Part shown: positions 1-16,609 of the stretch, in pieces
Layout of the letters: every line of letters starts with the position of its first letter
How positions within the stretch are numbered: position 1 is the stretch's first letter
DNA from: a virus
IMG/VR virus record: IMGVR_UViG_3300044527_000785
Coordinates: 1-22,706 of that record
DNA: 22,706 nucleotides
Reading direction: 5' to 3' (one strand)
Notes under the pieces: model-generated
The model's input: only the letters and a program-made list of their open reading frames with translations
Told to the model about the DNA's origin: nothing
Databases searched by the model: none
Position numbers and translations under genes: made by a program

Positions 1-292
1 CTATCAGCCAGTCCATGTCTGTTTTTTCAGACACATTTCTTATCAGATCTAATTCCTGTTTTACTTTTTTGTACTGTCCCTCATTGAAGTTTTGGTTCTC
101 TATCTCGATGGATAGAACGTTGAAATCGATTGTATTTGGTTTGTACTTGTCGACATAATTGTCAATAATTTTAAGAATTGTTTTTTGTTCGTAACTATCA
201 AAGTAATCTTGGCTTAGATATGGCAAAACCTTCTGTCTAAATTTTACATTAGAAAGAAGGTTTGCGAATACAATATGTTCAATTGTCTGCAT
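1..292 (-). CDS. 41: Replicative DNA helicase gp41, N-terminal part (runs off the window)
   Basis: An open frame begins at an ATG at 292 and continues to the left edge, giving 97 residues of N-terminal sequence. It starts MQTIEHIVFANLLSN and includes VLPYLSQDYFDSYE. This fits the N-terminal domain of T4 gp41, which has an equivalent segment of the form WPYMDSEYFES followed by a helical stretch. Gp41 is the hexameric DnaB-like helicase that unwinds the lagging strand and works with the gp61 primase. The Walker motifs lie beyond the window, so the call rests on the N-terminal pattern and on position: 41 lies just downstream of uvsX in T4. The start overlaps the end of the uvsX C-terminal gene by 14 bases, suggesting coupled translation. 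The Shine-Dalgarno candidate is distant (AGGA about 13 bases upstream). Confidence 0.8.
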   Translation of the reverse strand, partial: MQTIEHIVFANLLSNVKFRQKVLPYLSQDYFDSYEQKTILKIIDNYVDKYKPNTIDFNVLSIEIENQNFNEGQYKKVKQELDLIRNVSEKTDMDWLI

Positions 293-776
293 TTTCGTTT
301 ATCAATCCTACTTGACCTTGAGAATATTGTTGTTTTACAGCCCGAAGGAAATCTGTGTTTTTAATAATTGGTAGCCAAAAACTATCTTGATTGGTTTGAT
401 CTTTTCTGCAGTTTTGTCCTGTAACTTTGTTCAAGTACCAACCCTTCTTTTCAGAAGTTACAAAACCATGTTGCAGAGCAATTTCTAACATTCCTGACCA
501 CATGTTGATACCACCTTCGTGTGTTACGTTAATTGGTATCTTAGATTTCTCCTTGACTTTTCTGGACTTTTCAATATTGATAATAAAGTTATATCCTACA
601 ACTTCAGTACCATCCTTCTCTTGTTGTCGTCCAATAAACCAAATATCATTAGAACTGTAATAGATTCCTGTGTTATGTGTTACAGTACCATCTTCAAGAA
701 TATAATGTTCTGCTTGATCAACAGAAATATCATATACAGGAATCTTGCCAATAGCCTTTATTGATTTAATTTTCAT
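279..776 (-). CDS. uvsX: UvsX recombinase, C-terminal piece preceded by a C-intein
   Basis: This 165-residue product has two parts. Residues 1-35 are a C-terminal intein half: the VYDISVDQAEHYILEDGTV segment has the usual block F pattern and it ends in the splice motif THN, followed by Thr36 as the +1 residue. Residues 36-165 are the C-terminal part of UvsX, starting TGIYYSSNDIWFIGRQQ and continuing through GYNF.INIEKSRKVKEKSK, which matches T4 UvsX after its SGG|TG position. The upstream gene at 943-1866 supplies the N-extein and N-intein, so a full recombinase requires trans-splicing. The start ATG has AAGGA about nine bases upstream. Splicing would join SGG to TGIYY without loss of any UvsX residue. 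The extein ends without the long acidic tail of T4 UvsX. Confidence 0.92.
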   Translation of the reverse strand: MKIKSIKAIGKIPVYDISVDQAEHYILEDGTVTHNTGIYYSSNDIWFIGRQQEKDGTEVVGYNFIINIEKSRKVKEKSKIPINVTHEGGINMWSGMLEIALQHGFVTSEKKGWYLNKVTGQNCRKDQTNQDSFWLPIIKNTDFLRAVKQQYSQGQVGLINENADN

Positions 777-924
777 TTAATATTTTCCTTATCTTTGAAT
801 AATGCATCCATTCGTTTGGATCATACAGGTTCTTGTGCTCTTTTTTAATTCGAATAGATTTTAATGTCTGAATAGATTTTAAAACTATAAAACCTTTTCG
901 TCCTATTTTTGCTCGATGCTCAGG
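766..924 (-). pseudogene. Open remnant frame between the two uvsX pieces, possibly the 3' end of a lost endonuclease gene
   Basis: The gap between the uvsX genes contains a frame of 52 codons with no stop and no ATG until codon 40. It is preceded in frame by TAA TAA and ends in a TAA that overlaps the start of the downstream uvsX piece. The translation is basic and protein-like (for example RIKKEHKNLYDPNEWMHYSK) and carries a six-residue repeat, LKSIQT/LKSIRI. I do not recognise the family. Split-intein genes in phage metagenomes are known to have free-standing homing endonuclease genes between their halves, so a decayed 3' end of such a gene is the simplest idea. That is inference; the stretch could also be non-functional spacer that happens to be open. 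Confidence 0.4.
852..882. repeat. Direct repeat, 13 bp twice, unit 18 bp
   Basis: The 13-base sequence GAATAGATTTTAA occurs at 852-864 and again at 870-882, an exact copy offset by 18 bases (six codons in the remnant frame on the minus strand). It probably reflects local slippage duplication. No role is evident. Confidence 0.8.
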
Positions 925-942
925 TTATTATAATAAACATGT

Positions 943-1866
943 TTAGTCGTAAATATTATACACATTATCGCCAATTTTTAAATCTTTCGCACAAACCCAT
1001 TGGCCATCAATTAAAAATTTGTGTTGTTTAGAGCAAACTACTGTATATCCGTTCTCAAGTTCTATTTCGAAACATTGAGGTTCTCCTTCTAATAAAGTAT
1101 CGGGATTCCACGTGTGTGTAACATTTCTAGGACCTTGAAGAGTCATTACTTTTTCATTCTCTCTAACGAGCTCTATATTTCTCAAAGACCCGTCTGCCAT
1201 AACAATTTTAGTACCCTCTACTAAACATCCACCAGACATGATTTGTTTAGGATATAAAGCCAATTCTTCATACGTGTGATTGATAACAATCATAGGAATA
1301 TTCTTCAAAGACAGGTGAGGCGTAACGATTCTGCCAAATGATTTCAAGGCTTTGGCTCTCGTCATGTCTGCAGCTTGATTTCCAGATTCAGCATCAGCAA
1401 CTTCTTTATTTGAAGCAAGATTACCAATAGAATCAATAACGACAATTACTTTGTCGCCTCTAGTAAGTTCTTTCAATTGATTGACACAATCATGTCGTAG
1501 CTCTTCAACTGTAGTCACTGGTGTGTGAACTACTCTTTTCGTATCGATACCAATAGAGTTAAAGTAATGCAACGGTGCACCAAACTCTGAATCATACAAA
1601 AGCATAATTCCATCGCTATACTTTTCTAGATATGATCTAGCAATCAATAAAGCAAACAACGATTTAAAGTGTTTAGAAGGACCTGCTATAGCTAGCATAC
1701 CAGGGTTGAATTCACCATCTATCTCTCCTGTTAATGCAACATTTAAAGCCGGAATCGTTGTTGACCACCCTTCTCTATTATTAAACAATTCTGAGTTTTC
1801 TATAGTATCTGTATATTTGATTGTTGAGTTCTTCAACATTTTATCTAAAAGTGTCATATTTACCAT
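943..1866 (-). CDS. uvsX: UvsX recombinase, N-terminal piece followed by an N-intein
   Basis: Residues 1-213 are the N-terminal part of the T4-type RecA homologue UvsX. They include the P-loop GPSKHFKS at about 62-69 (T4 has GPSKSFKS), the Walker B-type VIVVIDSIGNL at about 140-150, and end at MSGG near the DNA-binding L2 loop. Residues 214-307 are an N-terminal intein half: Cys214 starts block A (CLVEGTKIVMADGSLRNIELV region) and GYTVVCSKQHKFL at about 273-285 is block B, with the Cys-Ser-x-x-His form also seen in the gp41-1 split intein. The frame then stops at a TAA, and the rest of the protein is encoded at 279-776. GGAG lies seven bases before the ATG. The gene starts four bases after the end of gene 43. 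UvsX catalyses strand exchange in recombination-dependent replication. Confidence 0.93.
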   Translation of the reverse strand: MVNMTLLDKMLKNSTIKYTDTIENSELFNNREGWSTTIPALNVALTGEIDGEFNPGMLAIAGPSKHFKSLFALLIARSYLEKYSDGIMLLYDSEFGAPLHYFNSIGIDTKRVVHTPVTTVEELRHDCVNQLKELTRGDKVIVVIDSIGNLASNKEVADAESGNQAADMTRAKALKSFGRIVTPHLSLKNIPMIVINHTYEELALYPKQIMSGGCLVEGTKIVMADGSLRNIELVRENEKVMTLQGPRNVTHTWNPDTLLEGEPQCFEIELENGYTVVCSKQHKFLIDGQWVCAKDLKIGDNVYNIYD

Positions 1867-8911: not shown

Positions 8912-9821
8912 TTTTTGTCTCCCAATTTTCTTTACAAAGATTATTAATATAAGTCATGTTGGATACACATCTATCAACTATTGAATATGATGAGTTATAA
9001 AAGTTAAAATCTACTGGATTTTCGTATTTACCATCAACATAACCAGTAGGAGACTGATCGAACTCGATACCATTACACCCATACCAAACGGCTGCAGATG
9101 AGTCCCACGACACAACATTATAGTTGTGTTCAGGTAGGGATATTAATTGCTTAATCAATCTGATTTCATTTGGTCCATCAAGTAGGCCAAGCATATGAAT
9201 TGGTGGTCTGTTTGAGTCGTTTGTCAGTTCTTCAAATAGCTGCTTCTGTCTTTTTGGTAAAGTAGACAGATAATGCCATCTTGCAAACGAACGCTGACGC
9301 TTGTTTTTATAGCAATTATATGCATTAGGAACACCAATAATGGAAAAGGCAAGTTCGTCAACTAGTCCACCAAAATAAAGATCAAGACCGTTCCGAACAG
9401 ACCTGTCATAATCTTCAAGATCACCAACTGTACTTTGAGGAACAAATACTGTTTTAAAACCCTCATACTTAAACAGAGAAGCCCACTGTCTTGCGGCATT
9501 GAAGGTTTTTTTAGACTCCTCTCCTGGATAATCAGGAAGAACAATGTGTGTTGCTTGTACGGTTTTCCCTAGTGAGCATAACCGTTCAGGATCCATAGAT
9601 TCCCCTAGTTCGAACGCCCCATTATCCATGATTCTTTTTACCGTATACCAATCATTGTTCATTTTGTTGTAACGAACATTTGTGGTTTCTTTATACCATT
9701 TCCGGTAAGAAAGATTTTCTTCAGCTACATGAGCTAAAACAAGCTCTGCACTATTGTACCTCGTAAAATTTGTTAGATATGCCCATGGCATAATGTGCGC
9801 AAAGTTTATACTATCAACCAT
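8883..9821 (-). CDS. dpdA: DpdA-like DNA 7-deazaguanine transglycosylase
   Basis: The 312-residue product resembles phage DpdA proteins, relatives of tRNA-guanine transglycosylase that exchange guanine in DNA for a 7-deazaguanine. The supporting segments are IMDNGAFELGES (Asp66), HIVLPDYPGE (Asp97), a TVFVPQST strand and FSIIGVPNAYN, which fit a TIM-barrel transglycosylase with catalytic aspartates near the N-terminal half. The Cys-rich zinc motif of bacterial TGT is not present. Genomic context is the strongest support: folE2, queD, queE and a QueD-like gene are all nearby on the same strand. AAGGA lies upstream of the ATG, and the gene overlaps its upstream neighbour by eight bases. Catalytic assignment of the aspartates is inferred. 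Confidence 0.7.
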   Translation of the reverse strand: MVDSINFAHIMPWAYLTNFTRYNSAELVLAHVAEENLSYRKWYKETTNVRYNKMNNDWYTVKRIMDNGAFELGESMDPERLCSLGKTVQATHIVLPDYPGEESKKTFNAARQWASLFKYEGFKTVFVPQSTVGDLEDYDRSVRNGLDLYFGGLVDELAFSIIGVPNAYNCYKNKRQRSFARWHYLSTLPKRQKQLFEELTNDSNRPPIHMLGLLDGPNEIRLIKQLISLPEHNYNVVSWDSSAAVWYGCNGIEFDQSPTGYVDGKYENPVDFNFYNSSYSIVDRCVSNMTYINNLCKENWETKNDYSFMVND

Positions 9822-10281
9822 TTGCTAGTTCCTTACTAAGCATACCATAAACACGTCCTTCATTCTCACCATCTTCAGAAACAGCACACTCAACCAGCCC
9901 TTCATAATCAGGATACAGTTCATTAAAGATATCAATAACTTCCTTTGCTAGCATTTCACAACTTTTGTTTCCAAAATATGAGCAACCATATAAGTCTGGT
10001 ACAATTGGATACTTTGCAAGCATTTGAACTTTGAGTAGCCTGCCGAGTCTTATGAATTCTACGTCTCTATCATCATGATTGACTTCACACGAAAATGTGA
10101 AGTGGAATTTATGTCTATGGGGATGCTTTAGAAATGAAACATCTTCCATCATGTCTCTAACTGTTTCTTGTTTTGTCTTTAGTTGTAGCTGTTCACAAAC
10201 GTTTGAGAATTGATGGATACCCTCAATATCAAAAGAACATGCTACTGATGTACAGAATGGTACGAACACAGTTTTACTCAT
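9814..10281 (-). CDS. QueD / 6-pyruvoyl-tetrahydropterin-synthase-like T-fold protein
   Basis: The 155-residue product has the outline of a QueD-type T-fold enzyme: a strand ending FVPFCTSVACSFD, the histidine cluster KHPHRHKFHFTF at about 52-62 in place of the usual HGH, a KSCEMLAKEVID helix matching the SE.LA helix of QueD, and a C-terminal VECAVSEDGENEGRVY segment matching the final V.V.E...n.Y strand. It does not show a clear catalytic Cys three residues before the His pair or the Asp-His motif, so it may be inactive as a QueD or act on another pterin. It sits between folE2 and dpdA and is probably part of the deazaguanine pathway. CAGGAG precedes the ATG, which overlaps the preceding stop as ATGA. 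Confidence 0.55.
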   Translation of the reverse strand: MSKTVFVPFCTSVACSFDIEGIHQFSNVCEQLQLKTKQETVRDMMEDVSFLKHPHRHKFHFTFSCEVNHDDRDVEFIRLGRLLKVQMLAKYPIVPDLYGCSYFGNKSCEMLAKEVIDIFNELYPDYEGLVECAVSEDGENEGRVYGMLSKELANG

Positions 10282-10565: not shown

Positions 10566-11519
10566 CTACACTAAACAACCCGGTCTTTCCGCTGGATCAA
10601 ACTTAGATGCTACTGCTATGGCTTCCCAGGGGTGAAGTGATTCGCAGTGTTGAATGGAAATCGAAAAGTCAGAGATCCTACCTTGATCATACCATTGATC
10701 CAGTCCTTGGTACAAAATGCGGCACGCATCTTCAGAGAATAAAAGATTACTACCATTCAACTCAGCAAACGCTTGTTCGTCTCTTCTTTTAACAACAATC
10801 TGTACTTCTGTAGGAATCAGTTTTCTGCATAGTTCAACAACATCTTCAATCCATACGATATTGAGTGGATCGTATTCGATTTTTACCTTTGCAATCGATC
10901 TTTGACTGTGAGCATTCGCTGCTGCAGATCTTTTTGAAGTTGCGTCATGCGCAAGCTCAAAACTACATGGGCATGTTGAAGAATAAACATAAGCCACTTC
11001 AAGAAAAAACCTATAGCTTCCATTACAGTATCTACCTTCTAGTTCAACGTCATAAGCTATATGACCTTTCAGCAATTGTTGATATCGATCTCTTGACCTA
11101 AGAGCCTTTTGCTCCCAAGGATATTTAAATTTTAGTTTACAATATGCGTTAGATGAATTTTGTTTATCTGCTAATGTTTTTAGCGCTTGAGCAATTCCAT
11201 CATTCGACAATCGGTTCTCAATTGTATCATGCATAATCAAATAAAGTCGTGAGAGATTCAATCCTTTTGCATAAGGATCATCTAACGAACAGTAAAGAGA
11301 CGCTTTTGATTGCAATAGTTGCGTTGTTCCGTCTCTTCTAGGTACTTGGATTGGTAAATCAACAGGAGCAATACCCACTTTCCTAAGTGGGACTCTTGCT
11401 CCTGGTAGAATTGGATTTATTTGTGGATCTGGTAGTTCTTCATCAGAAGGATAGTAATCTTCATCATACTTGAAGATCAAGTCTGGCATTTTAGAGCTGT
11501 AGTCAATGTTATTAATCAT
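10566..11519 (-). CDS. folE2: GTP cyclohydrolase IB (FolE2)
   Basis: The 317-residue product has the type IB GTP cyclohydrolase signature: KVGIAPVDLPIQVPRRDG at about 47-64, KGLNLSRL at 85-92 (the family usually has KGxHMSR), STCPCSFE at 181-188, AHSQRS at 203-208 and HCESLHPWEA at 291-300. The likely metal ligands, by comparison with bacterial FolE2, are a Cys of the CPC motif, His204, Glu293 and His296, all present. The enzyme converts GTP to 7,8-dihydroneopterin triphosphate, the first step towards 7-deazaguanines. It supplies the substrate for QueD. Phage deazaguanine clusters more often cited carry the type IA enzyme FolE. The start follows a queD 3' fragment whose end holds its AGGA ribosome-binding site. 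Confidence 0.93.
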   Translation of the reverse strand: MINNIDYSSKMPDLIFKYDEDYYPSDEELPDPQINPILPGARVPLRKVGIAPVDLPIQVPRRDGTTQLLQSKASLYCSLDDPYAKGLNLSRLYLIMHDTIENRLSNDGIAQALKTLADKQNSSNAYCKLKFKYPWEQKALRSRDRYQQLLKGHIAYDVELEGRYCNGSYRFFLEVAYVYSSTCPCSFELAHDATSKRSAAANAHSQRSIAKVKIEYDPLNIVWIEDVVELCRKLIPTEVQIVVKRRDEQAFAELNGSNLLFSEDACRILYQGLDQWYDQGRISDFSISIQHCESLHPWEAIAVASKFDPAERPGCLV

Positions 11520-11534
11520 AGTATCCTGCTTGTG

Positions 11535-11672
11535 TTAATCTAAATCTCTATAACCTTGTCTGTACGCCATGTTAGAAGGAGTCTCTCGTACTTCTACTCT
11601 AGTACACCACACGCGTGGAGACCACCCGTAATCTTTTAGAAAATACAGATTGATATGGATATATTTACTATC
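11535..11672 (-). pseudogene. queD: 3' fragment of a second queD
   Basis: Directly after the TAG stop of the intact queD, and in the same frame, 45 more codons are open and end in TAA. They encode a second copy of the QueD C-terminus: INLYFLKDYGWSPRVWCTRV then EVRETPSNMAYR, which aligns with the INPLIVEKTNGRVRICKVE and IWEHEFNTASY segments at the end of the intact gene. The fragment has no start codon of its own until a late ATG. Together with the 5' fragment at 13181-13270 it is best read as the remains of the resident queD into which the endonuclease and a whole second queD were inserted. Confidence 0.8.
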
Positions 11673-12146
11673 CTAAAAGTCAGAAGGTGTATAACTTGCT
11701 GTGTTAAATTCATGCTCCCAAATTTCAACTTTACAGATTCTAACTCTGCCATTAGTTTTTTCTACGATTAATGGATTAATAACATCGTAAACCCATTTAC
11801 AACATCCCTCAATTCCAGGGCCCCAGCCATCTTTTGCCGGAATAATTGTTAGTTGGATAACTTCTTCTCTATCCATCTGTTTTAGAAGATCGAGTTTAGG
11901 GTCATCGGAAGATACAAGTGTTTTATGATCCCAATTTTCTTCTAGCCACTCTTTTACAAATTTAAGATCACCAAAGTCATACACCCAGCCTCTTTCGTCA
12001 GGCTCACCATCAAAAATAAACTGAATGTATCGACTGTAACCATGACACCAAGAGCATTTTCTCGAGTTTCTGTTTGGATTTTCGGCGGCGCGCCAATTTC
12101 TGTGTGATGTAGTAATTGGGCCAAATTTTTTAGTAGATCTAAGCAT
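11673..12146 (-). CDS. queD: 6-carboxy-tetrahydropterin synthase (QueD), intact copy
   Basis: The 157-residue product has the QueD order of motifs: SHRNWRA near 14-20, CSWCHGYS at 31-38, a WVYDFGDLKFVKEWL strand and helix, the Asp-His pair WDHKT at 72-76, and the C-terminal IWEHEFNTASY. Cys31 lies four residues before His35, as the catalytic Cys does in E. coli QueD. His15 and His35 match two of the three zinc ligands, but the third position is Tyr37 (HGY, not HGH). I recall HGY as the form in related T4-like phage proteins. QueD makes 6-carboxy-tetrahydropterin from the FolE2 product. The gene is flanked by fragments of another queD. The ATG has AGGAG 11 bases upstream; a TTG at 12152 is better spaced and is an alternative start. 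Confidence 0.88.
   Translation of the reverse strand: MLRSTKKFGPITTSHRNWRAAENPNRNSRKCSWCHGYSRYIQFIFDGEPDERGWVYDFGDLKFVKEWLEENWDHKTLVSSDDPKLDLLKQMDREEVIQLTIIPAKDGWGPGIEGCCKWVYDVINPLIVEKTNGRVRICKVEIWEHEFNTASYTPSDF
12086..12103. repeat. Copy of the conserved WRA-coding block within intact queD
   Basis: This 18-base block holds the palindrome GGCGCGCC (12087-12094) and codes for the conserved Trp-Arg-Ala of QueD. It matches the block at 13192-13209 in 16 of 18 positions; the two queD copies diverge sharply on the far side of GGCGCGCCG. It is a candidate junction or recognition site for the homing event. Confidence 0.7.
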
Positions 12147-13128
12147 TTTCAATAATACTCCTAATTTGATTAATTTGGTATTGAACTATTTCTTCGTTGT
12201 CATCGCTTCTTATTATAAACAACTTAGCATTAAGTTTATATACAATCGATTTTTTAATGTTGTCAATGTTGTATTGGTATCTTGCAGATTTTCCGCTAGC
12301 CATTTTTTTATTAGGCTCTGTTGCTGCCTCTTCAAGAGTAGGGTGAAACGCTGCTCCATCATATTCCATCACCAATATGGGTGTATCGTTTTTACATACT
12401 ACAAAATCATACATAAATCCTCTTTCATATACTTCTGACCAGATTTTATACTCTGATTTGCCGTTTTTTAAATCTCCATAGTATATTGTCAAAGAATTGG
12501 AGTATTGAAGATTGTTTAAAATTTTTAAAATAATATCTAAACAAGGTTTACTAGCTTGTCCTGGAACTGTAGGAAAAAGTTTTCTTTTGTAATCCTTAAC
12601 TTCTTTACTATCTTCACTATATTTATATCTTAAAATATTGATACTAGAGATCGCACCGTTGTATCTTTCAGCTTTTGTTTTTTTCGATTTATCGCAAATT
12701 GCTGCTTTCTTTTCATCGCTAAAGGTTGACCGTCTTTTAGAGTTTGAAATGGCTACTTTGGTATACCTATCCTTTATAATGTTCTTTGCTTCAGATATAG
12801 TTATATTTGGTTTTACTTTCAATACCGATTCTAGAGAACCAGTATTTTTCTTAGCCATACACTCTTGATATTTTAGTCTTCCTTTTTCCTCACCGTATCT
12901 ACGAATAAAATTTTCTAAAGATTGTTTAGACTTATTAACATGTTTTTCAAATTTAGTTTTACCCTCATTCTCTCCATATCGCCACAAAAACCATTCTTTT
13001 GTTAATCTTTTATACGGCTGACTGTTGTACTTTTCCGCTTTCTTTTTTTCGGTTTTCCATATTATTGTTCCCTTTTCAACACCATGTTTTTCAATATAGT
13101 GTTCAATTGGTTTTACTGTGTAATTCAT
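12139..13128 (-). CDS. Free-standing homing endonuclease, Vsr/EDxHD-like
   Basis: The 329-residue basic protein has three N-terminal repeats, HGVEKGTIIW (15-24), YGENEGKTKF (51-60) and YGEEKGRLKY (78-87), of a kind seen in phage-encoded endonucleases and probably DNA-binding. The C-terminal domain has FMYDFVVCKN with Asp241, then ILVMEYDGAAFHP with Glu255, Asp257 and His262, a pattern like the Vsr-related EDxHD nucleases described as homing endonucleases beside split inteins and introns. A basic helix and RYQYNIDNIKKSIV follow. The gene lies between a 5' queD fragment and a complete queD, and its last bases overlap that queD. It has a weak ribosome-binding site (GGAT) that may be hidden by a hairpin. 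The nuclease family is inferred from motif shape only. Confidence 0.72.
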   Translation of the reverse strand: MNYTVKPIEHYIEKHGVEKGTIIWKTEKKKAEKYNSQPYKRLTKEWFLWRYGENEGKTKFEKHVNKSKQSLENFIRRYGEEKGRLKYQECMAKKNTGSLESVLKVKPNITISEAKNIIKDRYTKVAISNSKRRSTFSDEKKAAICDKSKKTKAERYNGAISSINILRYKYSEDSKEVKDYKRKLFPTVPGQASKPCLDIILKILNNLQYSNSLTIYYGDLKNGKSEYKIWSEVYERGFMYDFVVCKNDTPILVMEYDGAAFHPTLEEAATEPNKKMASGKSARYQYNIDNIKKSIVYKLNAKLFIIRSDDNEEIVQYQINQIRSIIENA

Positions 13129-13137
13129 TTTTAATAT

Positions 13138-13160
13138 CCGTGTTTGTAACTTCTACACGG
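13138..13160 (-). promoter_or_regulatory. Hairpin over the endonuclease ribosome-binding site
   Basis: On the minus strand CCGTGT (13160-13155) and ACACGG (13143-13138) form a perfect 6-bp stem with an 11-base loop, ten bases before the endonuclease ATG. The last GG of the stem is part of the only Shine-Dalgarno-like sequence (GGAT). Folding would hide it, as hairpins do for some T4 homing endonuclease genes. The function is inferred. Confidence 0.4.
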
Positions 13161-13180
13161 TTATGTAGTTAATTAGATTT

Positions 13181-13270
13181 TTAATGAAGAACGGCGCGCC
13201 ACTGTCTGTATGCTACAGGTCCTAGATGAGAATACGTTTTAGTTGATACGTACTTTGGACTATAACTCAT
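13181..13270 (-). pseudogene. queD: 5' fragment of the resident queD
   Basis: A 29-codon frame starts at an ATG with GGAG six bases upstream and encodes MSYSPKYVSTKTYSHLG followed by PVAYRQWRA, then VLH and a stop. The STKTY, GP and RQWRA elements match the N-terminus of QueD (intact copy: RSTKKFGP and HRNWRA) and are closer to the STKTY...FRQWRA form I recall from T4-like phages. Homology ends exactly after the WRA codons. It appears to be the true start region of the original queD, cut off by insertion of the endonuclease plus second queD. A 29-residue peptide is probably still translated. Confidence 0.8.
13192..13209. repeat. Copy of the WRA-coding block in the queD 5' fragment
   Basis: This block carries GGCGCGCC (13193-13200) and matches 12086-12103 at 16 of 18 positions. 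It marks the point where similarity of the 5' fragment to queD ends, and so is the likely left junction of the inserted endonuclease-queD segment. Confidence 0.7.
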
Positions 13271-13296: not shown

Positions 13297-14595
13297 CTAT
13301 ACAACCTCTTCCCAAGAAAGAGAACCAGCACAATTGCATGAGTTTGTACTTGATGTAATTGCAATTGTTAGAGGTGTTGTCGTGTTTGCTAGACGGTTTC
13401 GTTCAAGCTGAAATCTGAATATAGAATCTGCAAATGATACTGTACCTTTTGCTTGGTTTGTCGATGTAATATACGCAGAATGCAAATCGACACCCCCTGA
13501 GATTATAGTTAAAGTGTTTGAATCATATTGTACTGTTGAATCAGAGCTAACGTTTGCCCATGTAGCACCAGTCAAAGTTGCGTTCTGAATAATTTTATAT
13601 CGGTAGTTAGAAGCTGATATTGGCAAAATATCTAGGTGTTTAGGAACAACGATTGAATCCGGATAATCCGGGTTCAACCTAATAGATAAAAGAGGATAAT
13701 ATGTTCCTGCTGTGGCTAGACTAACTCCTGGTGTTGGCTGTAGGCCAACTGTCCTTGGTCTTCCATATAGTTCATAGCCTCCTTCTGAAATAACCGATGA
13801 ACATATTTGTTTTAGTGTCGAAGCGGATTGTGTAACACCTGTATTCTCAATTTCATACCTCAAAGGCAGGCAAGCTGTTGTCATGTATGCTGCCGTGCTA
13901 ACATTATCATTATGAAACGTATGAGCAATAACAAATTTTCCATCAACAACAAACCCACAACGAACATCACCAACACCAAGCCATTCAATATCCATCCAAA
14001 GTATATTTCCTTTGGTTATATTGATTCCATTTTGGTATTCTATACCAGAATTTTGTGCCGAATATCCTGTGCCGTTGAACTTATCGCCGTTCCAGTTTGC
14101 TTGAGCAACTCTTGTGTTCACAACAGATCCACTAACAAATGACCTCAAAACAAAGTAATTTCCAGTTCCATCATTTTCAAAGTAGACACCATTTTGTTCT
14201 GAGAAATAACCAACTCTTTGTCTTAGGTTTGTTTTTTGCTCGTTCATCACAAATGAGTTCAAAACTAATAATGATTTGCCTGGTTGATAAGCAAATACCT
14301 TTGTTGTCTCTCTAATTACTTTATTACCACTACCCGTTCCAACATTTAAATATACTGATGATTCGTTAGTTTTATATTCAGTGTTAGAACTTGCTGTATT
14401 TGAAGTTGCCCATTTGCTATTTTCAAAATGTCTGTTCTGAGAATCAAACAAAGTAAAAGGATTTGAAATTCTAAACCTACTAAATGCATCTCCAGCTGTA
14501 CCAGATGCTGTAATTTTATCAGATAGCATCACCACTTCATGAATTGTTTTGTTGGAAGGTAGTAACTGATCGGTTAGTGTGCTATACTGGGCCAT
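13297..14595 (-). CDS. Putative virion structural protein
   Basis: The 432-residue protein is rich in Ser, Thr, Asn and Gly, with many short strands and no enzyme motifs. The N-terminal part has AFSRFRISNPFTLFDSQNRH, a phrase I associate with structural or tail-fibre-type proteins in marine phages. The middle has concanavalin-like strands (GYFSEQNGVYFENDG, GFVVDGKFVIAHTFH) and the end is beta-rich with TPLTIAITSSTNSC. A role in an appendage or receptor-binding part of the particle is likely but not shown. It is odd to find it between queE/phosphoribosyltransferase genes and queD. The ATG is preceded by a weak AGAGA. No terminator is seen after it. Confidence 0.55.
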   Translation of the reverse strand: MAQYSTLTDQLLPSNKTIHEVVMLSDKITASGTAGDAFSRFRISNPFTLFDSQNRHFENSKWATSNTASSNTEYKTNESSVYLNVGTGSGNKVIRETTKVFAYQPGKSLLVLNSFVMNEQKTNLRQRVGYFSEQNGVYFENDGTGNYFVLRSFVSGSVVNTRVAQANWNGDKFNGTGYSAQNSGIEYQNGINITKGNILWMDIEWLGVGDVRCGFVVDGKFVIAHTFHNDNVSTAAYMTTACLPLRYEIENTGVTQSASTLKQICSSVISEGGYELYGRPRTVGLQPTPGVSLATAGTYYPLLSIRLNPDYPDSIVVPKHLDILPISASNYRYKIIQNATLTGATWANVSSDSTVQYDSNTLTIISGGVDLHSAYITSTNQAKGTVSFADSIFRFQLERNRLANTTTPLTIAITSSTNSCNCAGSLSWEEVV

Positions 14596-14620: not shown

Positions 14621-15157
14621 CTATTTAGCTAGTATGTTGTTTTGTAAGAATGGCAACGAGTCAAATTCCCACCAAAATTGGTACCAACCATTATCTTCAA
14701 TCTTGTTTTTCTTATCTATTTTAGAACCATAGTATTGAACGTCAACATTATATTGATTGGATACATTGTGAATTAACGAACAAAATTTTACATCCTCAGC
14801 ACCCTCAAATGAATCCTTATCAATATTTGAGAACTGAAATCCTGAATCACAGATATCGTCAATAATGATAACCTTACTGTTTGTATAATCAAATGATGAA
14901 AATGGCACATATAATCCTCTGATACCTGGTACAGTATTTGTACCTTTTGGTAAAACATAAAACAAATCTGAACACAGCGATTTCAAATCTGGCACAATTT
15001 CTTGTAAAAGCCTTCTTATCGTCGCTGCAGGTATCACTCCTCCACGATCAAGGGCAAACCAAAAGTCAGGAAAAAATCTTTCCTTGCTCATCTGCGTTGC
15101 AACATTTAAACAATCAGTATAAAACTGCAGTTGATTGTAGTGTATTACATTCATCAT
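14621..15157 (-). CDS. Type I phosphoribosyltransferase-like protein
   Basis: The 178-residue protein has the two marks of the type I phosphoribosyltransferase fold: FALDRGGVIPA at about 34-44 (pyrophosphate loop) and KVIIIDDICDSG at about 95-106 (PRPP-binding loop with the paired Asp). The C-terminal GWYQFWWEFDS is like the tryptophan-rich end of xanthine/hypoxanthine-type enzymes. The family joins PRPP to a nucleobase, or reverses this. The base is unknown. Its position directly after queE, overlapping it by one base, hints that it could act on a deazaguanine base or supply purine nucleotides for the pathway; this is inference. AGGA lies upstream of the ATG, and a second ATG follows directly. 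Confidence 0.75.
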   Translation of the reverse strand: MMNVIHYNQLQFYTDCLNVATQMSKERFFPDFWFALDRGGVIPAATIRRLLQEIVPDLKSLCSDLFYVLPKGTNTVPGIRGLYVPFSSFDYTNSKVIIIDDICDSGFQFSNIDKDSFEGAEDVKFCSLIHNVSNQYNVDVQYYGSKIDKKNKIEDNGWYQFWWEFDSLPFLQNNILAK

Positions 15158-16116
15158 TATGATCCTACTACGTTACCCCAAACATTGATGTGTACTCTTG
15201 GTGAGTAATGGAAGCCTCTTTTCAATACTTCTCCAACAAACTCTTGTTCAGATAATGGATGTCCAGTAATACTTCCTTGCTGACCCTCTAGTGTTCCTCC
15301 AACCTTCATAATATAAACAGGCCATTCTTTCAGCCGTTCATTTGATTGAAGGACTTCAAGTACAGAGTCTAGCTCGTCCCAGCTTTCTTTTGAACCGCTA
15401 ACAACAAATTTAAATTGACCATTAAACTCTGAGTATTGTTGTAGAACGTCTGGACGAATGGCTTTTTCTGGCCGTTCTCCACTAACAGTGAATAATTTAG
15501 GTGATACACTAAGAAACAAATCAACAGTATCCATCCACCATTGACTGATTCTACCGTAAAAGTCTTCTTCTAATAATTGAGTACCGTTTGTTTCAACTGT
15601 TACTAAACTTGGACAGTTATTAATTGCAATAAGATGATTAATGATTTCTTCTATGGTGTGTTGTGAATGTGGTAGTAACGGTTCTCCCCCCGTAAAACAT
15701 AGGTCAACTTGTCGACTACCGTTCACAAACAGTCCATTTGGATTATATTGATTTGTAATCTTTTGTATTAACCGTTCACAGATTTCTTCTGTTGTTCCTG
15801 TTCTCATTAAATGTCTGAAACGCTTTGACCACGAGTAAGATGTATCACAGCCTCGCTCAAAAACAGGAAGTTGTTCTACTTCTGTAATCGTAGATAGATC
15901 TACGTTTAGATAAGGCAGATCCCAACTAGAAGGATCAGTAGGATTTACTTGACCAAAACCACTACAGTTAAGGTTGCATCCAAACAATCGTAGCCATACT
16001 GTATTTCTACCAGTATGCTTTCCCTCTCCTTGAATTGAGTGGAATATTTCACTGTACGTATATACTCCCTCATATGCTTTTGAAACTAGAGAGTTTGTTT
16101 TATTCAATAATTCCAT
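15157..16116 (-). CDS. queE: 7-carboxy-7-deazaguanine synthase (QueE), radical SAM
   Basis: The 319-residue protein has YSEIFHSIQGEGKHTGRNT at the N-terminus, the classic QueE opening, then WLRLFGCNLNC and TGGEPLLPHS (143-151), the SAM-binding GGEP motif. The usual CxxxCxxC iron-sulphur motif is broken up: Cys47 and Cys51 are in place, but the third Cys is probably Cys90 in the sequence GCDTSYSW, where WCDT would normally follow at once. About 36 extra residues lie between, giving C-x3-C-x38-C. The product is longer than typical bacterial QueE (about 210-240). QueE converts 6-carboxy-tetrahydropterin to 7-carboxy-7-deazaguanine. I chose the ATG at 16116; a TTG at 16122 is better placed behind AGAAAG. 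It overlaps the deformylase gene by 17 bases. Confidence 0.92.
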   Translation of the reverse strand: MELLNKTNSLVSKAYEGVYTYSEIFHSIQGEGKHTGRNTVWLRLFGCNLNCSGFGQVNPTDPSSWDLPYLNVDLSTITEVEQLPVFERGCDTSYSWSKRFRHLMRTGTTEEICERLIQKITNQYNPNGLFVNGSRQVDLCFTGGEPLLPHSQHTIEEIINHLIAINNCPSLVTVETNGTQLLEEDFYGRISQWWMDTVDLFLSVSPKLFTVSGERPEKAIRPDVLQQYSEFNGQFKFVVSGSKESWDELDSVLEVLQSNERLKEWPVYIMKVGGTLEGQQGSITGHPLSEQEFVGEVLKRGFHYSPRVHINVWGNVVGS

Positions 16117-16609
16117 TTGCAAATTTTCTTTCTAATTTTTGTTGTTTACGTTTAGCAACATCGAGTTTTAGTCTCGAGACTTTGTCAGTAAAGCAGATAC
16201 CATCTAAATGGTCAAGCTCATGTTGAAATACTCTTGCTGATAGCCCTGAATATTTGTCTGTGATTATTTTACCGTATGGTGTCTGGAATCTTACACGGAT
16301 CGTTTCTGGTCTGCTAACTTTCAGCATTAGTCCAGGGTATGATAAACATCCTTCTTCCATCTCAATAAAATTTTGAGACGTATAAACAATTTTAGGGTTG
16401 AAGCAGACGATTGGTAATTCATTTTCCATACAGAACACTCTATATGGTAAACCAACCTGAGGTGCAGCAAGCCCAATACCTTTATTTACTCTCATACACT
16501 CAACCAACTGGGTTGCTAACTCTATCGGATCAATAGGTGGCTTTTCAAAATCATACTCTGGTGTTCCAGCTTGTAAAATAGAGTTTGTTCTGTCTATGTC
16601 AACCTTCAT
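16100..16609 (-). CDS. def: Peptide deformylase
   Basis: The 169-residue protein has all three deformylase motifs: GIGLAAPQVG, EGCLSYPG (Cys metal ligand) and QHELDHLDG (two His ligands and the catalytic Glu). It removes the formyl group from the N-terminal methionine of new proteins. Deformylases are common in marine T4-like phages, where they have been linked to turnover of photosystem proteins in cyanophages, but that role depends on the host and cannot be read here. The C-terminus is a short basic helix (RLKLDVAKRKQQKLERK), so it is not the strongly truncated phage type. I chose the ATG at 16609 with AAGGTG upstream; an ATG at 16636 would add nine residues. It overlaps the end of gene 46 by 11 bases. 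Confidence 0.95.
   Translation of the reverse strand: MKVDIDRTNSILQAGTPEYDFEKPPIDPIELATQLVECMRVNKGIGLAAPQVGLPYRVFCMENELPIVCFNPKIVYTSQNFIEMEEGCLSYPGLMLKVSRPETIRVRFQTPYGKIITDKYSGLSARVFQHELDHLDGICFTDKVSRLKLDVAKRKQQKLERKFANGIIE

Follow-up and report, generated by a model that had tools for sequence, protein, structure and literature searches.

In the virus record IMGVR_UViG_3300044527_000785, we found a queD gene whose two ends enclose an endonuclease gene and a complete queD of another subfamily; queD encodes an enzyme in a modified-base pathway. The record, analysed over its full 22,706 bases (the window), is a single metagenome contig of an environmental phage with T4-like genes such as UvsX. 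We consider it probable that a VSR-like endonuclease and a complete type-A queD came as a homing unit into a resident queD of type B and replaced its function. The nesting of the parts, the two subfamilies, the uninterrupted alleles in relatives and the family of the endonuclease are described first, followed by the proposed origin and its rivals.

Anatomy of the interrupted queD locus

On the minus strand, the order runs from the queD 5' end through the endonuclease gene, the complete queD and the queD 3' end to folE2 (Table 1). The initial annotation had given this same order, with the 3' end in frame, and every part was found at its place. The 5' fragment still has its start codon and a ribosome-binding site, GGAGAAA, upstream of the ATG. 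At the other side, the reading frame of the 3' fragment continues directly from the TAG of the intact copy, and the ribosome-binding site of folE2 lies directly past the stop of the fragment; both sites had been claimed to be kept. The stop of the endonuclease gene and the ATG of the intact queD overlap (GAAAATGCTTAG). For the possible hairpin just before the endonuclease start the signal is weak, with z = -2.25 for the 54-nt spacer vs -0.06 for a 72-nt stretch. Between the phosphoribosyltransferase gene and queD lies a gene for a virion structural protein (phrog_1645; identity with cyanophage proteins about 46%), which no syntenic relative has at this position.

Table 1 Positions of the features in the window.
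Feature	Position	Strand	Remarks
uvsX, fractured gene	279..1866	-	
Conserved protein, 312 aa	8883..9821	-	adjoins pathway genes
155-aa protein	9814..10281	-	
folE2	10566..11519	-	next pathway gene, synteny anchor
Resident type-B queD, 3' end	11535..11672	-	45 codons; DSKYIHINLYFLKDYGWSPRVWCTRVEVRETPSNMAYRQGYRDLD, then stop
Complete type-A queD	11673..12146	-	ATG 12144-12146; TAG 11673-11675
Lengthened loop of intact copy (AENPNRNSR)	12060..12086	-	directly after WRA, at the resident's break position
Matching tract of intact copy, ACAGAAATTGGCGCGCCG	12086..12103	-	16/18 identical
Endonuclease gene	12139..13128	-	ORF, 329 aa
Possible RNA hairpin (CCGTGT...ACACGG)	13138..13160	-	weak; just before endonuclease start
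Resident type-B queD, 5' end	13181..13270	-	25-26 codons up to WRA, followed by VLH and a stop; MSYSPKYVSTKTYSHLGPVAYRQWRAVLH, then stop
Breakpoint tract of resident, ACAGACAGTGGCGCGCCG	13192..13209	-	
Virion structural protein gene	13297..14595	-	
queE-like radical SAM gene	15157..16122	-	upstream synteny anchor

Both fragments derive from a single type-B QueD

The fragments had been described as QueD ends that differ from the intact copy. We define type B as the QueD subfamily with the C-terminal motif R[VLI]WC.[RK]VEVRET..NMA, and searched 611 six-frame segments of the window with a type-B profile from which the window's own sequences had been left out. The 5' fragment matched at profile positions 4-29 (E = 5e-9), the 3' fragment at positions 114-156 (E = 8.7e-12) and the intact queD at E = 8.8e-27; a single further match among the 611 segments had E = 0.92. 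Since the profile picks out only the intact gene and the two fragments besides that one, the fragment matches are beyond chance. With a type-A profile, neither fragment matched significantly, whereas the intact gene reached 1e-59. Matches at both ends of the type-B model also exclude the possibility that the fragments are independent small genes.

Residue identities agree with the profiles. The 5' fragment shares up to 18/26 residues with type B vs at most 9 with type A, and the 3' fragment up to 27/45 with type B (26/45 with the QueD of L159) vs at most 10 with type A. Both signatures occur together in whole proteins: the search for FolE2 relatives led to a contig (L001) whose queD has STKTY...AYRQ and VEVRETPSN in one protein, and a pattern search for the RQWRA codons returned 31 contigs (L106-L136), nearly all with a clearly matching type-B subfamily. 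Acidovorax phage ACP17 likewise has a type-B queD. In the tree that the initial annotation had called for, the joined fragments fall inside type B (support 98.7/99) and the intact copy falls with type A. The fragments are thus QueD ends, aligning to the two ends of type B only; they proved to be neither unrelated small genes nor parts of one contiguous ancestral protein with the intact copy, the two findings named beforehand as contrary to that reading.

Relative to L159, 85 residues are absent between the fragments. The C..HGY region, which does not vary in these proteins, is among them. No intein sequence was present when the fragments were checked for a split intein. With about 85 codons gone, among them this active-site region, the two halves are predicted to be dead.

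The intact copy is a type-A QueD

In trees, the intact copy groups with Pseudomonas phage Ettore (49%) and contigs L024-L031. It matches Pfam PTPS at 5.9e-19 (68.7 bits vs a gathering cut-off of 22.4), and scores below the cut-off of the QueD equivalog TIGR03367 (39.2 vs 89.25 bits), the phage QueD-like family phrog_2389 fitting it instead. Because the score lies under this bacterial equivalog cut-off, we name the gene QueD by its family and gene neighbourhood.

Where bacterial QueD usually has the zinc motif HGH, the type-A and type-B phage proteins (e.g. L024 and L159) read HGY, and type B additionally has Tyr at the place of the first His. The activity of these HGY-bearing proteins deserves attention. 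Phage Ettore (L020) itself carries two differing QueD-like genes close to each other, ETTORE_0052 and 0056.

The slot before folE2 holds uninterrupted type-B genes in relatives

Relatives were found by an alignment-based FolE2 search, and the genes of the window were then mapped onto them. Single-sequence searches with the locus missed relatives that alignment queries found, so empty single-sequence results mean little. The common order in the relatives is gp46, queE, often a phosphoribosyltransferase, queD, folE2, a 155-aa gene and a 312-aa gene. The uninterrupted relatives that had been sought exist: in L158, L159 and L164 (folE2 74% identical) a whole type-B queD stands just before folE2, at the same slot. 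Type A occupies this slot in L140-L154, L157 and L165 (folE2 72-75% identical), another QueD type in L160-L163 (72-75%) and yet another in L166, L169, L170 and L172 (about 71%), while L155 and L156 (71%) have a type-B gene together with queE upstream of folE2. Taken over L140-L218, at least four QueD subfamilies stand before folE2 in closely related contigs, making the slot a gene-replacement hot spot. Fossil queD ends were not seen in the pre-folE2 gaps of the other relatives, where other small ORFs lie.

From the subfamilies of fragments and intact copy, together with the uninterrupted syntenic relatives, it follows that a unit of endonuclease and type-A queD is nested in a type-B queD. The nesting says that the type-B gene was still in one piece at the entry of the unit, and is silent on which type is ancestral. 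Since type A is native at the same slot in equally close relatives, the direction and the number of steps are not fixed.

Two further proteins accompany the slot. The 155-aa protein is conserved, being encoded in almost every relative at the place between folE2 and the gene for the 312-aa protein; it matches phrog_17812 at 2.5e-15 and phrog_2389 at 0.01 (a very weak QueD likeness), and carries an HPHRHKF motif; it is possibly a diverged pterin-synthase-like protein. The conserved 312-aa protein resembles, by eye, the DNA 7-deazaguanine transglycosylase DpdA; library searches of this protein gave no match backing the DpdA name.

The endonuclease belongs to a VSR-like family

The endonuclease has N-terminal RYGE.G repeats and a C-terminal VSR-like nuclease domain (YDF...MEYDG...FH...D..K). 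In the database libraries it gave only a weak match, to phrog_22677 (6.6e-6), the 'VSR endonuclease' of Aeromonas phages. A profile of seven VSR-like phage endonucleases scored 42.8 bits, compared with at most 1.3 in 200 shuffles, and matched in two stretches, the N-terminal repeats and the nuclease domain. In Aes144, the VSR endonuclease separates the two halves of a polymerase gene whose annotation includes parts of a split intein, and the VSR-like members in CP21, PTm1 and F379 are also inside split DNA polymerase genes. A protein of Campylobacter phage WX1 with the same N-terminal repeats lies inside a split ribonucleotide reductase gene. Judged by its sequence, the endonuclease is a member of this VSR-like family, which is found inside fractured phage genes.

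As to a VSR/PD-(D/E)XK fold, single-sequence structure models of the endonuclease were poor (pLDDT 35 and 49) and not usable, and there was no significant PDB fold match. No close relatives of it were found in viral contigs, phages or bacterial genomes, nor beside any other queD. The idea of a group I or II intron was rejected, as no Rfam intron family was found around the endonuclease.

A short tract is shared at the breakpoint

An 18-bp tract at the break is common to both queD copies at the homologous position, with 16 of the 18 bases identical and an exact match over ten of them. The resident ends directly after TGGCGCGCCG, or three codons further on if VLH is a remnant of DSH. Within the whole window, GGCGCGCC occurs just twice, and the codons of the tract are rare there, with CGC making up 1.9% of the codons for Arg and GCC 8.6% of those for Ala. 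Among QueDs not chosen for this site, TGGCGCGCC was present in one of 51 with WRA and in none of the 38 from contigs below 40% GC. The intact copy has the B-like WRA, whereas the other members of clade A carry D in place of A after WR. The tract forms a direct repeat flanking the endonuclease, and a short tract presumably passed between the two queD genes around a break at this site.

The intact copy has N instead of the usual Q (RNW) and, just past the tract, a longer loop, with a spacing of 12 vs 5-6 in 66 others. The Q-to-N change and the longer loop might shield the intact copy from cutting. The idea of a protective insertion unique to this copy was weakened, since L166, L169 and L172, which carry another QueD type at the same locus, have a similarly long loop; for this reason we do not rely on the loop as protection.

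Proposed origin of the arrangement

We propose that both genes arrived together, the unit entering the resident at the conserved RQWRA codons, which are probably the cut site of the endonuclease. Cleavage would lead to homing, and in the repair of the break the resident would lose about 85 of its internal codons. The complete queD, co-translated behind the endonuclease, would now provide QueD and so rescue the function, and the new copy may be protected. Both resident ends would persist as fossils, and the whole unit would act like a home-and-rescue element. Because the internal codons are missing, the insertion is not clean. In T4, such breaks undergo resection of their ends and are mended with the donor as template, flanking sequence being co-converted (PMC2988022); the loss of 85 codons would be compatible with resection. 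A further, tentative extension, which we regard as rather doubtful, is a natural home-and-rescue drive, in which the endonuclease would cut the conserved RQWRA site in the queD of other phages and so destroy that gene, and the linked queD, with RNW and the longer loop, would escape.

The initial annotation had likewise read the locus as a cassette that entered a resident queD. This reading is supported, with the qualifications that we infer the replacement of function, that the steps and their direction are not fixed, and that about 85 codons were lost. Against a homing unit stand the occurrence of the arrangement on one contig only, the lack of a close endonuclease relative beside other queD genes in the searches, the native type A at the slot of close relatives and the possible protective loop in another QueD type at the locus, and other orders of events are possible.

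Distinctly less likely, in our estimate, are two independent steps, in which illegitimate recombination placed type A into type B, or the endonuclease split type B first, and the other piece came later, so that queD was not cargo. The at least four QueD types at the slot in relatives without a detectable endonuclease favour such a course, since they indicate that queD replacement occurs here without one; however, the overlap of the endonuclease stop with the queD start and the precise ends of the type-A gene inside type B argue for a joint arrival. It is improbable, though conceivable, that an N-terminal version of the fungal case described below took place: a crossover at WRA would have made a B-A hybrid with the type-B C-terminus left downstream, and an endonuclease with a duplicated type-A N-terminus would then have inserted at WRA, leaving the insert flanked by the TGGCGCGCCG repeat. 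This route would account for the tract repeated directly on either side of the endonuclease and for a type-A gene with B-like WRA codons, and fungal endonuclease ORFs do carry replacement gene ends (PMC3630166), but it takes one extra step and the hybrid was seen in none of the relatives. An assembly chimera of two phages is very improbable even for a single metagenome contig, since it would not put both ends of one gene, in order, around a second gene, and the sole shared stretch, 10 exact bases, is short for a misjoin.

Comparison with known systems

VSR-like homing endonucleases inside fractured phage genes were described by Dassa et al. 2009, as cited in PMC10448857. As in the fractured genes of Aes144, CP21, PTm1 and F379, one gene is in two parts with an endonuclease of the same family between its ends, and the endonuclease overlaps or nearly overlaps the downstream part. 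The halves of fractured genes are taken to still make the product, often via a split intein, whereas the queD fragments have no intein and lack about 85 codons, and in place of these halves, predicted to be dead, stands a complete gene from another subfamily.

The nearest parallel, by analogy, is offered by mobile endonuclease ORFs of fungal mitochondria that carry replacement C-termini, known from Allomyces atp6 and from Glomus atp6, atp9, cox2 and nad3 (PMC3630166). There too, a foreign copy of target coding sequence comes with the endonuclease ORF and the native end is a downstream fossil. However, the fungal ORFs replace just the C-terminus, fused in phase to the native start, whereas the phage locus has a whole gene with its own start behind the endonuclease and a resident without its middle. 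Intronless homing by the free-standing endonucleases of T4 (PMC2988022) shares with the queD locus an endonuclease near its presumed target, with break repair and co-conversion; those endonucleases usually stand beside an intact target, whereas this one is inside a broken target with a replacement.

Engineered home-and-rescue and Cleave-and-Rescue drives (PMC7968924, PMC7951863), in which a nuclease is linked to a working copy of the gene that it destroys, follow the same logic, and the arrangement looks like a natural form of them. In the window the nuclease is linked to a complete queD, and from its position we take queD to be the probable target. The engineered drives use Cas9, while cleavage resistance of the replacement is here a conjecture from sequence. 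A literature search of open-licence papers found no phage report of such an arrangement. In the window, a complete replacement gene appears to make up for the broken one, a role that neither complementing halves nor a split intein plays there.

A homing endonuclease that sits in a coding gene has to leave the function of its host alive; this is known to be achieved through introns, inteins or split subunits and, in the mitochondria of fungi, through replacement gene ends. The solution here appears to be the carrying of a complete gene of another subfamily. If so, homing endonucleases would be vehicles of whole-gene displacement in phages, which could help explain the differing QueD types at the pre-folE2 slot of close relatives, and the locus would offer, beside the engineered drives, a natural case in which the evolution of resistance can be studied.

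The same window contains another fractured gene, uvsX, split by a split intein. Its halves are 166 bases apart with no endonuclease between them; an intein N-terminal region closes the N-half and an intein C-terminal region opens the C-half, each scoring higher than its curated cut-off.
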